Below, piece after piece: positions 6,322-9,236 of a stretch of DNA of 11,594 bases (positions are counted from its first letter, which is position 1; each line of letters opens with the position of its first letter). The position numbers and the translations under genes were made by a program. The stretch lies in assembly GCA_018384835.1 (NCBI GenBank), contig JAHAYB010000453.1, forward strand, positions 1 through 11,594, given 5' to 3'. This DNA is from Comamonas sp. Its GTDB lineage: Bacteria; Pseudomonadota; Gammaproteobacteria; Burkholderiales; Burkholderiaceae_C. The notes beneath the pieces were generated by a model. That model was not told where the DNA came from. It was given only the letters and a program-made list of their open reading frames with translations, and ran no database searches.

Positions 6322-6903
6322 ATGATAGGTAAGTTAAGCGGCACTCTGGCCGACAAGCACCCGCCCGAGGTCATCATCGACTGCCACGGCGTGGGCTATG
6401 AAGTGCAAGTGCCCATGAGCACCTTTTACCAACTGCCCGCCGTCGGGCAGCCGGCCAGCCTGCTCACCCACCTGATTGTGCGCGAAGATGCGCAACTGCT
6501 CTACGGCTTTGGCTCGGTGCAGGAGCGCCATGCGTTTCGCCAGCTTATCAAAGTCAGCGGCGTGGGGCCACGCACAGCTTTGTCTATTCTGTCTGGCCTG
6601 AGTGTGGATGACCTCGCCCAAGCCATCAGCCTGCAAGAGGTAGGCCGCCTGATTAAAGTACCCGGCATCGGCAAAAAAACCGCCGAACGCCTGCTGCTAG
6701 AACTCAAGGGCAAGCTGGGCGATGCCCTCACCAGCGCCAGCCCCGCCACCGCCCCCAGCAGCGCCGAGCGTGCCGACATTCTGCAAGCCCTGCTGGCTCT
6801 GGGCTACAACGACAAAGAGGCCAACGCCGCCCTCAAAGCCCTGCCGCCCGATATTGGCGTGAGTGAGGGGATTCGGCAGGCGTTGCAGGCGCTGGGGAAG
6901 TGA
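6322..6903 (+). CDS. ruvA: Holliday junction branch migration complex subunit RuvA
   Basis: RuvA tetramers bind the four-way DNA junction and hold the RuvB motor rings during branch migration. The 193-residue product has the three expected parts. The N-terminal OB-fold begins MIGKLSGTL and contains VGYEVQVP. Two helix-hairpin-helix motifs follow, ISxVGPRTA-like [13 protein letters not shown] (78-90) and [13 protein letters not shown] (113-125). After an Ala/Ser/Pro-rich linker (about 135-148) comes the RuvB-binding domain III ([22 protein letters not shown]). The start at 6322 has a good AAAGGA and is the conserved MIGKL start; an upstream in-frame ATG at 6253 would run through phoH. ruvB, normally the next gene, is displaced by two toxin-antitoxin modules. 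No LexA-type box (CTGT-N8-ACAG) is visible upstream. Confidence 0.97.
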
Positions 6904-6913
6904 AGCGGTCAGC
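6903..6913 (+). repeat. Left copy of an 11-base imperfect direct repeat bordering the TA insert
   Basis: AAGCGGTCAGC begins on the last base of the ruvA stop codon. AAGCGGTAAGC at 8105-8115 matches it at 10 of 11 positions. The two copies bracket both toxin-antitoxin modules. They could be the scar of insertion by recombination or target duplication, but an element this short may also occur by chance. Confidence 0.4.
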
Positions 6914-6916
6914 ATC

Positions 6917-6935
6917 TATACGCCATTGGCGGATA
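6917..6935. promoter_or_regulatory. 19-bp palindrome, candidate operator of the first TA module
   Basis: TATACGCCATTGGCGGATA is symmetrical about the central T at 6926 with one mismatched pair: TAT-a-CGCCA-t-TGGCG-g-ATA. It ends 10 bases before the toxin ATG and overlaps the -10-like TAAAAT at 6934-6939. That is where an HTH antitoxin would bind to repress its own operon. The palindrome is seen directly; its binding by the antitoxin at 7260-7550 is inferred from HigA-type systems. No T-run follows, so it is unlikely to be a ruvA terminator. Confidence 0.6.
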
Positions 6936-6945
6936 AAATGCACCT

Positions 6946-7257
6946 ATGGAATTTATTGAAACCCCTACCTTCACCCGCTGGGTCACTCAGTTGCTAACAG
7001 ATGAGGAATACCGCAAGCTGCAAAACCTCCTGATTGCCAATCCCGAGCGCGGCGACCTGATTCAAGGCGGTGGGGGCATTCGCAAACTGCGCCACGCCTT
7101 GCCTGGGCGTGGCAAGAGCGGCGGGGTTAGAGCCATCTACTACTGGAAGAATCAACAAAACCAGTTCTACATGCTGGTGATTTATCCAAAGTCGAAAAAA
7201 GACAACCTCAGCAGTGAGGAAACTGCCATTCTGCGTGATTTAGTCAAGGAGCTATGA
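6946..7257 (+). CDS. RelE/HigB-type toxin of a toxin-first type II TA module
   Basis: The 103-residue product fits the HigB/RelE-like toxin family that is encoded upstream of a NadS/HigA-type HTH antitoxin. The family hallmark is visible at 43-67: GGIRKLR, then PGRGKSGGVRAIYYW, followed by a hydrophobic strand (FYMLVIYPKSKKD, 74-86). Members of this superfamily act as ribosome-dependent mRNA nucleases, which is inferred for this protein. It is preceded by ruvA (42-base gap) and followed directly by its antitoxin. No Shine-Dalgarno is seen; a -10-like TAAAAT ends 6 bases before the ATG, so the transcript could be leaderless. Base composition is less GC-rich than in the ruv genes, consistent with acquisition. 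Confidence 0.88.
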   Translation: MEFIETPTFTRWVTQLLTDEEYRKLQNLLIANPERGDLIQGGGGIRKLRHALPGRGKSGGVRAIYYWKNQQNQFYMLVIYPKSKKDNLSSEETAILRDLVKEL

Positions 7258-7259
7258 CG

Positions 7260-7550
7260 ATGGAAAAAGAACTATTTAACGACTTGGTGCAAAGCCTAAA
7301 AGAAGCCAAAGCCATCGCCCACGGCGAGGTTCAGGCTTCACGTCGCTTTCAGCTAGACACTCCGGATGTCAAGGCAGTACGTCAACAAACCGGCCTGTCA
7401 CAAAGTGAGTTTGCCGATTTGATGCGAGTCAGCATTAAAACCCTACAAAACTGGGAGCAGCAGCGACGCAGCCCCACCGGCCCTGCTGCTGCCCTGCTCC
7501 AAATTGTCACGAACGCACCTGAGCTAGCGCTAAAGGCATTACACGCCTGA
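7260..7550 (+). CDS. HTH (Xre/HigA, NadS-like) antitoxin of the first TA module
   Basis: This small DNA-binding antitoxin pairs with the toxin just upstream. From the ATG at 7260 it has 96 residues: an N-terminal helix (ELFNDLVQSLKEAKAIAHGE) likely used in toxin binding, then a helix-turn-helix at about 36-70 with VKAVRQQTGLSQSEFADLM and VSIKTLQNWEQQRRSPTGPA, as in Xre-family repressors and the NadS group. By analogy the complex represses its own promoter, probably at the palindrome at 6917-6935. An earlier ATG at 7254 overlaps the toxin stop (ATGA), but the AAGGAG at 7246-7251 lies 8 bases from 7260 and only 2 from 7254, so 7260 is preferred. Sampled lines within it are about 45% GC, against about 65% in ruvB. 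Confidence 0.88.
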   Translation: MEKELFNDLVQSLKEAKAIAHGEVQASRRFQLDTPDVKAVRQQTGLSQSEFADLMRVSIKTLQNWEQQRRSPTGPAAALLQIVTNAPELALKALHA

Positions 7551-7593
7551 AAGCCCTACCCCCAAAGGAATACAAATTTTTTGGAGAAACGCC

Positions 7594-7842
7594 ATGCCCC
7601 ACCCACTACTTGCCTCAATGGCGGCCAGCGTCACCGAACTCAAGCGTGACCCAATGGGCACAGTGCTTGCTGGGGATGGAGCGCCTGTTGCCATCCTTAA
7701 CCGCAATAAGCCTGCGTTCTACTGCATCCCAGCCAAAGCCTTTGAAGCCTTGATGAACAAGCTCGAAGATTTAGAGCTGAACGCCATCGCTAATGCACGT
7801 TCCGACCAAGCAGAAATAGCGGTGTCTCTGGATGCGCTTTAA
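7594..7842 (+). CDS. Phd/YefM-type (StbD-like) antitoxin of the second TA module
   Basis: The 82-residue product fits the prevent-host-death (Phd/YefM) antitoxin family. The N-terminal DNA-binding part has ASVTELKRDPMGTVLAGDG and PVAILNRNKPAFYCIPA (11-47). A helix (FEALMNKLEDLELNAIANA) then leads to the C-terminal toxin-clamping tail EIAVSLDAL. The shape is close to StbD antitoxins of StbDE plasmid-stability modules. GGAGA at 7583-7587 lies 6 bases before the ATG, a good ribosome site; a second in-frame ATG at 7618 is less likely. The 43-base gap from the previous antitoxin holds no clear promoter or operator. The last 11 bases overlap the relE gene, so the pair is probably translationally coupled. 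Confidence 0.9.
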   Translation: MPHPLLASMAASVTELKRDPMGTVLAGDGAPVAILNRNKPAFYCIPAKAFEALMNKLEDLELNAIANARSDQAEIAVSLDAL

Positions 7843-8113
7843 CCTGCTTTTCAAAGAAGCGGCCTTGGCTGAATGGCGACGATTGGACGGCAGTGTGCGT
7901 GAACAGCTCAAGAAAAAACTGGCACAGCGTTTGGAGAACCCACGAGTGCCATCCGCCAAGCTGTCTGGGCATCCCGACCGCTACAAAATCAAACTTCGTA
8001 GCGTGGGCTATCGCTTGGTTTATGAGGTGCGTGATACTGAGGTCGTAGTGGTGGTAATCGCTGTCGGCAAACGCGAGAACGATGCCGCCTATATCGCCGC
8101 CGCTAAGCGGTAA
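7832..8113 (+). CDS. relE: RelE toxin (RelE/StbE family) of the second TA module
   Basis: This 93-residue protein closely resembles E. coli RelE, which cleaves mRNA in the ribosomal A site. All residues known to be needed in E. coli RelE occur at the same numbers: K52 and K54 (in YKIKLRS), R61 (GYRLVYEV), and R81 and Y87 (VGKREN, then AAY). The N-terminal part [25 protein letters not shown] (6-30) also matches. The toxin therefore looks intact and potentially active. Its start lies inside the antitoxin gene (11-base overlap), ensuring antitoxin is made first. It ends 37 bases before ruvB. Pairing with a Phd-type rather than ribbon-helix-helix RelB antitoxin is known from StbDE-type modules. 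Confidence 0.93.
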
Positions 8114-8115
8114 GC
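8105..8115 (+). repeat. Right copy of the 11-base direct repeat bordering the TA insert
   Basis: AAGCGGTAAGC covers the last two sense codons and stop of relE plus two bases. It matches 6903-6913 at 10 of 11 positions. Loss of one copy and everything between would leave ruvA and ruvB about 47 bases apart, a normal operon spacing. This is suggestive, not proof, of how the block entered. Confidence 0.4.
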
Positions 8116-8150
8116 CCATTGCCGCTTCTACATCTGCACCCGCTACTTCC

Positions 8151-9236
8151 ATGACCATCCACACCGAAGACTTCGGCCTGCCCCCATCCGGCCAGCGCCC
8201 CCCAGCCCAGCAACAGCCCCGCATGGTGGCCGCCACCACTGCCTCACGCAGCGAAGAGGCGCAAGAACGCGCTCTGCGCCCTAAGTTGCTGGAGGAATAC
8301 GTCGGCCAGAGCAAGGCACGCGGGCAGTTAGAGATTTTTATTGGCGCAGCCAAAAAGCGCGGCGAAGCACTTGACCACGTGCTGCTGTTTGGCCCGCCCG
8401 GCTTGGGCAAAACCACGCTATCGCACATCATCGCTGCCGAGCTGGGTGTGCAACTGCGCCAAACCAGCGGCCCCGTGCTGGAAAAGCCCAAAGACCTAGC
8501 CGCCCTACTCACCGGGCTGGAAGCGGGGGACGTGCTCTTTATTGACGAAATCCACCGCCTTTCGCCCGTGGTGGAAGAAATCCTCTACCCCGCGCTGGAG
8601 GATTATCAAATCGACATCATGATTGGCGAAGGGCCAGCAGCGCGTTCCATCAAGCTGGATTTGCAACCCTTTACCCTGGTGGGTGCCACCACCCGCGCCG
8701 GGATGCTGACCAACCCACTGCGCGACCGCTTCGGCATTGTGGCGCGGCTGGAGTTCTACACCCCCGAGGAGCTGGAACGCATCGTCACCCGCAGCGCCGG
8801 CCTGCTGCAAGTGCCCATAGACCCCGCCGGAGCCAACGAAATCGCCCGCCGCAGCCGTGGCACACCGCGCATTGCCAACCGCCTGCTGCGCCGCGTGCGC
8901 GACTTTGCCGACGTGAAGGGCGACGGGCATATCACCCAAGCCATCGCCCAGCAGGCACTGACCATGCTGGACGTGGACCCTGAGGGCTTTGACGTGATGG
9001 ACAGAAAACTGCTGGAGGCCATCATCCACCGCTTTGACGGCGGGCCTGTGGGGGTGGACAACATCGCGGCCAGCATCGGCGAAGACGCAGGCACGATTGA
9101 AGATGTGATTGAGCCTTACCTGATTCAGCAAGGCTATCTGCAACGCACCCCACGCGGGCGGGTCGCCACGCAAGCCGCCTGGCGGCATTTGGGGCTGGTT
9201 GCGCCTGCCGGGCGGCAGGATTTGTTTGAGGGCTAG
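8151..9236 (+). CDS. ruvB: Holliday junction branch migration ATPase RuvB
   Basis: RuvB forms hexameric AAA+ rings that pump DNA through the RuvA-bound junction. The 361-residue product has Walker A GPPGLGKT (81-88), Walker B LFIDEIH (129-135), sensor 1 GATTRAG (178-184), the arginine-finger segment PLRDRFG (189-195), sensor 2 [10 protein letters not shown] (236-245) and the C-terminal winged-helix domain ending in YLQRTPRGR. The start MTIHTEDF at 8151 matches the usual family start. No Shine-Dalgarno is visible before it, and the frame is open back to an ATG at 8082 inside relE, which would add 23 unlike residues. No promoter is evident in the 37 bases after relE, so expression probably comes from upstream. 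The stop is 2 bases from the ydhR stop on the other strand. Confidence 0.97.

Follow-up and report, generated by a model that had tools for sequence, protein, structure and literature searches.

RuvA and RuvB act together as a single complex, and ruvAB is a textbook operon. RelE of Escherichia coli, to which one of the toxins described below is related, has RelB as its antitoxin partner. Two described systems offer the closest comparisons for the locus reported here. In E. coli the toxin–antitoxin (TA) pair yafNO is transcribed both from a promoter of its own and, once DNA is damaged, from that of dinB (PMC2814082), which shows that read-through from a repair-gene promoter into a TA pair does happen. 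In Vibrio cholerae the footprinted operator of HigA2 is TGTACGC(N)5GCGTACA, and it reaches over the −10 element (PMC11006873).

The window, by which we mean the whole stretch of 11,594 nucleotides analysed, comes from a Comamonas sp. MAG and carries four small genes between ruvA and ruvB. Its features in this region are as follows.

6325..6903, + strand: ruvA, intact to its stop (TIGR00084, 2.4e-62).
6917..6935, + strand: operator-like inverted repeat of module 1, TATACGC-CATTG-GCGGATA, read from the sequence.
6946..7257, + strand: toxin 1, a HigB2-type toxin of the RelE family and the first gene of module 1 (PF06296, 4.8e-12).
7254..7550, + strand: antitoxin 1, a NadS/HigA2-type HTH antitoxin (NadS, NF041265, 3.9e-21, above cut-off).
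7551..7593, + strand: spacer of 43 bp ahead of antitoxin 2, with a Shine–Dalgarno-like GGAG in the sequence.
7594..7842, + strand: antitoxin 2, a Phd/YefM (YafN-like) antitoxin (weak matches to PF02604 and TIGR01552).
7832..8113, + strand: toxin 2, of the RelE mRNA-interferase family (ParE/RelE; PF05016, 2e-13; TIGR02385).
8114..8150, + strand: ruvB leader of 37 bp, with no Shine–Dalgarno sequence or promoter recognisable in the sequence or by scanning.
8151..9236, + strand: ruvB, intact, with its ATG at 8151 (NF000868, 4.3e-163).

Gene calls and profile matches bear out the original prediction that the ruvA–ruvB gap holds four intact genes on the ruv strand, ordered toxin–antitoxin and then antitoxin–toxin; in both pairs the toxin and antitoxin genes overlap. 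The predicted difference in base composition was also found, with a GC content of 0.515–0.549 in the four TA genes as compared with 0.627 in ruvA and 0.637 in ruvB, and GC3 was 0.54–0.63 in the TA genes and 0.75 in ruvA/ruvB. When compared with homologs of 70–80% protein identity, toxin 1 showed 16/10/50 differences at the first, second and third codon positions and antitoxin 2 showed 15/4/43. Because differences concentrate on codon position 3, we take the four TA ORFs to be real genes that have been kept as proteins by purifying selection. An in-frame ATG at 8082 overlaps the toxin-2 gene, and a ruvB start there would give RuvB an N-terminal extension of 23 residues. A tRNA-Leu gene lies on the − strand of the window at 2647–2733.

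The MAG is fragmented (526 contigs, 85% complete) and the window is the whole of contig C483, as might be expected had a TA fragment been joined to the ruv locus during assembly. We regard such an artefact as exceedingly improbable: phoH–ruvA and ruvB are collinear with the same genes in the four nearest relatives, which makes a chimeric join unlikely, and the joins fall between genes, not within them. Two genes tested from the downstream side of the window's ruvB were not found within 1.5 kb after ruvB in those four relatives.

The distribution of the block was assessed in 53 genomes of the genus, our own included, of which 51 have ruvA and ruvB on one contig. By match ends, which take in up to about 30 bp of ruvA, the gap measured 6–204 bp in 20 genomes and 741–9475 bp in 31, the present genome among the latter. 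The nearest relatives on a tree of RuvA+RuvB (G037, G039, G030 and G009) form the sister clade, and their gaps are 94–204 bp by match ends and 67–177 bp by gene coordinates. Searches with the four TA proteins by tblastn gave no hit in the 50 other congeneric gaps (E 1e-3), in 60 gaps of the family or in 25 gaps of other families (both at E 1e-2). The original prediction had reckoned with the possibility that close relatives all carry the block; none of the relatives searched does. Given its absence from all those gaps, we reject the idea that the block is ancestral to the genus. Of the sister clade's four short gaps, three (L035, L037 and L038) have AGCAAGCGCTRRCAGCTATT in common, which may be a dispersed intergenic repeat.

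A DNA search with the block among 399 family genomes, in which at most two candidates were scored per genome, matched 21 others, 14 of them in module 1 only and seven in module 2 only. Among plasmids, 1095 records matched the block and no single place covered 80% of it. A single composite mobile element bearing both modules was considered and rejected, as no DNA relative covering both halves was found among the candidates scored in the family genomes and none of the plasmid records reached 80% of the block in one place. Since the halves were never found in one stretch, the modules most likely arrived separately, in this lineage. Acquisition into the operon of two modules of different families, as had been proposed, is thus upheld by the family assignments, by the absence from congeneric gaps and by the separate matches to the two halves.

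The premise that ruvA and ruvB are normally adjacent did not hold as a rule here. Both genes were found in 144 of 160 family genomes among the matches listed, and in 127 they shared one contig and strand; in the others of the 144, again among the matches listed, they lay on different contigs (12) or on opposite strands (five). Among the matches listed for the 127, the gap was 250 bp or less in 59 genomes and 251–30,000 bp in 64, including our own, while in four the genes were further apart or in another order. These sizes are taken from match ends and are overstated by up to about 70 bp; once corrected, G150 alone changes class and counts as adjacent, giving 63 split of 127 among the matches listed. 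Of 85 genomes from the order's other families, 76 were measurable, with 51 adjacent and 25 split; outside the order but within the class, 104 of 122 were measurable, with 91 adjacent, 10 split and three in which the genes were remote.

We examined 60 of the 62 other split family gaps, the two left out (G198 and G070) being about 20 kb each. The cargo is mixed, comprising carbonic anhydrase, trypsin-like proteases, PCu(A)C copper chaperones and many single families, and it lies on either strand. In one clade (L056, L045, L061, L058 and L060) the gap contains tandem related genes of ∼480–660 aa, five of them in L056, which on reading resemble trypsin-type proteases. Every ORF listed was on the opposite strand in seven of the 30 other split genus gaps, as judged by a caller that picks the longest ORFs and sometimes places them on the wrong strand. 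Opposite-strand inserts indicate that co-transcription of ruvA and ruvB is dispensable in relatives, so that an inexact loss of the block need not harm the host.

These observations are what would be anticipated if the TA genes were neutral cargo, with ruvB served by a promoter of its own and TA regulation not reaching RuvB. About half of the measured family genomes, among the matches listed, are split, with varied inserts on either strand, and the opposite-strand inserts of relatives imply that ruvB can own a promoter. Because such relatives live without co-transcription, this insulation of ruvB stays the main rival to the reading that we prefer, in which ruvB shares the TA transcript. Nevertheless, we consider insulation somewhat unlikely. 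No + strand terminator-like site was predicted in 6904–8150, and a promoter scan of low sensitivity found no + strand promoter-like site before ruvB. The same scan misses the module-1 promoter and finds none ahead of ruvA from 6200 on, so that its result leaves room for a ruvB promoter. Also against insulation, the TA inserts of three other genomes abut or overlap ruvB, and no promoter could fit between insert and gene.

Those three genomes (G087, G141 and G480) carry toxin genes in the ruvA–ruvB gap, all on the ruv strand. In G087, which belongs to another genus of the same family, there is a MazF/PemK toxin (PF02452, 2.8e-15, above the gathering score; NCBIfam score below cut-off), preceded by an ORF that resembles MazE by reading and has no NCBIfam match, and followed by an AbrB-type antitoxin (TIGR01439, 3.6e-14) and then a PIN/VapC toxin (NF047959, 1.2e-9, below cut-off; PF01850, 4.2e-12). 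The last stop of this insert lies 1 nt before ruvB, which is read with a GTG start, and G087 is a second tandem case. G141 has a zeta-type toxin (PF06414, 4.1e-10, assigned by the P-loop in its translation) and a small ORF that belongs to no recognised family; the stop of this ORF and the ruvB ATG overlap as ATGA. G480 is from another family; its insert begins with an MNT-type nucleotidyltransferase, 1 nt past the ruvA stop, and includes a HEPN protein whose stop likewise overlaps the ruvB ATG as ATGA. As the Pfam counts do not name their members, we identified the zeta, MNT and HEPN genes from their translated sequences. Related bacteria often fill the ruvA–ruvB position with other genes, and sometimes with other TA pairs.

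The scan for such genes covered 74 of 74 small (A1), 63 of 87 large (A2) and 112 of 121 further (A3) ORFs of the family, nine of 47 ORFs of the genus (A3), in whose gaps we looked chiefly for the four proteins of the window itself, and 73 ORFs from 23 of the 25 gaps of other families (A4), L284 and L285 being left out. With this coverage, the number of TA-bearing gaps is a lower bound. A ruv-strand DUF4160–DUF2442 pair, a predicted TA, lies in the gap of G090 (L163, 2830–3366); it was paired by reading translations and left out of the count. Among the matches listed, a literature search found no report of TA genes, or of any other insert, separating ruvA from ruvB.

It is conceivable that TA genes within ruvAB are favoured by selection, either because RuvB then follows their de-repression under stress or because a cell that deletes them pays in RuvB as well (operon-anchored addiction). 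Toxin genes of different families occur in four genomes, ours included, and all are co-oriented with ruv; the tight junctions with ruvB in the other three, and the second tandem arrangement in G087, are in keeping with this idea. We nevertheless judge selection for such coupling to be distinctly improbable. Four cases stand against many non-TA inserts, and we do not claim enrichment; co-orientation in four loci would arise by chance with a frequency of 0.5 to the fourth, about 0.06; the window's own ruvB starts 37 bp past the block; and the block is unique among the genus genomes searched. TA genes are, besides, generally common. A broader proposal, which we hold to be doubtful, is that the ruvA–ruvB junction of the order serves as a recurrent docking site where TA modules, with toxins of six types or more (HigB2, RelE, MazF, PIN, zeta and HEPN/MNT), become internal to the operon; RuvB synthesis would then be tied to the TA genes both transcriptionally and translationally, would rise when antitoxin is degraded under stress, and would be disturbed by removal of the TA genes.

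The first module resembles a described pair. Toxin 1 matches the structures of V. cholerae HigB-2 at E 1.2e-22 over residues 3–93, and has no NCBIfam match; antitoxin 1, whose gene lies downstream of toxin 1, matches those of HigA-2 at E about 1e-10. An inverted repeat with a GC-N5-GC core was found upstream of toxin 1 in the window and in 10 of the 10 homologs compared; these were drawn from 14 module-1 DNA relatives, L096, L099, L101 and L110 being left out for their partial or remote toxin matches. In the window this repeat (6917–6935) overlaps a −10-like TAAAAT (6934–6939), the end of which is 6 nt before the toxin ATG. Counted by eye, the operator arms have six of seven and five of seven bases identical to TGTACGC, and the right arm departs from a perfect inverted repeat. 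Module 1 thus has a putative operator of the higBA2 type, a single inverted repeat over the −10. The toxin-1 message would be leaderless, its mRNA starting at or near the toxin ATG.

Further copies of the module-1 operator in the genome were considered and rejected: ACGCCATTGGCG has five more exact matches, and in the single direction of reading that was checked none of them precedes a toxin of this kind. The same MAG has three more remote relatives of antitoxin 1, of 40–49% identity (L086, L087 and L088; contigs C3, C175 and C240). Assignment of the block to a defence system was rejected, PADLOC yielding just weak HTH matches, for antitoxin 1. SOS control of the ruv/TA block was rejected as well: LexA-type sites (CTGT-N8-ACAG) are not in excess, the window having three matches with one mismatch where chance alone predicts 4.15. 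None of the three is upstream of ruvA and one falls within the toxin-2 gene (7891–7906).

In module 2, antitoxin 2 scores 26.9 bits against PF02604 (4.1e-6), below the gathering score of 29.8, and 21.0 bits against TIGR01552, just over the cut-off of 20.8; it comes nearest to the YafN model, with a score under the cut-off (2.6e-10). Almost the entire length of toxin 2 aligns with E. coli RelE structures (PDB 4v7j, 4v7k and 4fxe; E 2.9e-29), and the toxin keeps K52, K54, R61, R81 and Y87 of E. coli RelE, which we take to be its catalytic residues. An antitoxin-2 relative lies directly upstream in 65 of the 80 RelE relatives kept, in named genomes, of 107 found. In the other 15 (59–62% identity, mostly enterobacteria; L233–L236, L238–L246, L248 and L250) no antitoxin-2 relative was detected upstream, which suggests that a similar RelE toxin has a different antitoxin partner in those loci. 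In L215 (3001–3814) and L094 (139–2004) a module-2 relative is found near a remote module-1 relative, in another order or orientation. A literature search for NadS with RelE found none.

Homologs of module 2 share a AAAGTGCTAATATTAGTACT-like motif at a median of 24 bp before the antitoxin. The motif was derived from the same sequences that it scores, each sequence's own counts being removed, and on that basis 63 of 68 distinct homologous upstream regions scored above the 95% level obtained by shuffling the region in the window, the other five lacking a significant motif. It is likewise absent from the window's spacer (7551–7593), which scores −0.9 against a shuffled mean of −1.0. To judge from the sequence, module 2 has probably lost its own promoter-operator, although a non-consensus promoter could lie in the 43-bp spacer. 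Lacking the operator usual for its kind, module 2 is probably supplied by transcripts that begin upstream, at module 1 or at ruvA; for the same reason we do not claim it as a self-regulated unit.

Taken together, the data make the following explanation a likely one. Two unrelated type II TA modules would have been gained separately in an insertion-tolerant interval, all of their genes co-oriented with ruv. Antitoxin 1, of the HigA2/NadS type, would repress the module-1 promoter together with toxin 1, and module 2 would be expressed from that promoter and by read-through from ruvA. The same transcripts would run on into ruvB, adding to RuvB a TA-repressed input on top of that from the ruvA promoter. 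The anatomy of the locus can be read directly from the DNA; from it we infer the transcript into ruvB, which ruvB probably shares with the TA genes. Both modules may simply be ribosome-dependent mRNA interferases of the ordinary sort, serving in stabilisation or stress, and a dedicated role in repair is not needed to explain them.

The four TA genes are ordinary members of known families. What makes the locus worth following is where they sit, the second operator that is inferred to have been lost, and the fact that toxin pairs recur at a repair-operon junction. Within one bacterial order this junction varies and has come to house toxin pairs of several kinds; in some genomes not a base is to spare between the insert and ruvB. 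In such loci nature may have put a core repair gene on one transcript with a TA promoter, and they offer a direct route to asking whether TA autoregulation reaches host genes. Module 2, for its part, has apparently dispensed with an operator of its own since coming to lie behind another TA module.

Toxin 2 is partnered by a Phd/YafN-like antitoxin, unlike E. coli RelE, and the operator usual for Phd/YefM–RelE modules of the module-2 kind is missing. Like the window, E. coli dinB–yafNO has a TA pair in a DNA-repair operon (PMC2814082); there, however, the pair lies downstream of a repair gene, while in the window the TA genes lie between two and upstream of one. The window also shows no LexA-type excess, in contrast to the SOS-regulated dinB–yafNO. 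V. cholerae higBA2 (PDB 5ja8, 5jaa and 8a0x) is like module 1 in that the toxin comes first and both proteins are homologous, and in its one inverted-repeat operator with an N5 spacer over the −10 (PMC11006873). Among the four base-contacting residues of HigA2, the window's antitoxin keeps Asn72 and Arg77 and has Lys for Arg68 and Gln for Glu71; the half-sites of its operator are TATACGC and TATCCGC, as against TGTACGC in V. cholerae (PMC11006873). Unlike higBA2, the window's pair sits inside ruvAB. In this it is like the inserts of G087, G141 and G480, where ruv-strand toxin genes and small partner ORFs fill the space between ruvA and ruvB, although the families differ: MazF and AbrB/PIN in G087, a zeta-type toxin in G141 and MNT–HEPN in G480, compared with HigBA2 and Phd/RelE in the window.
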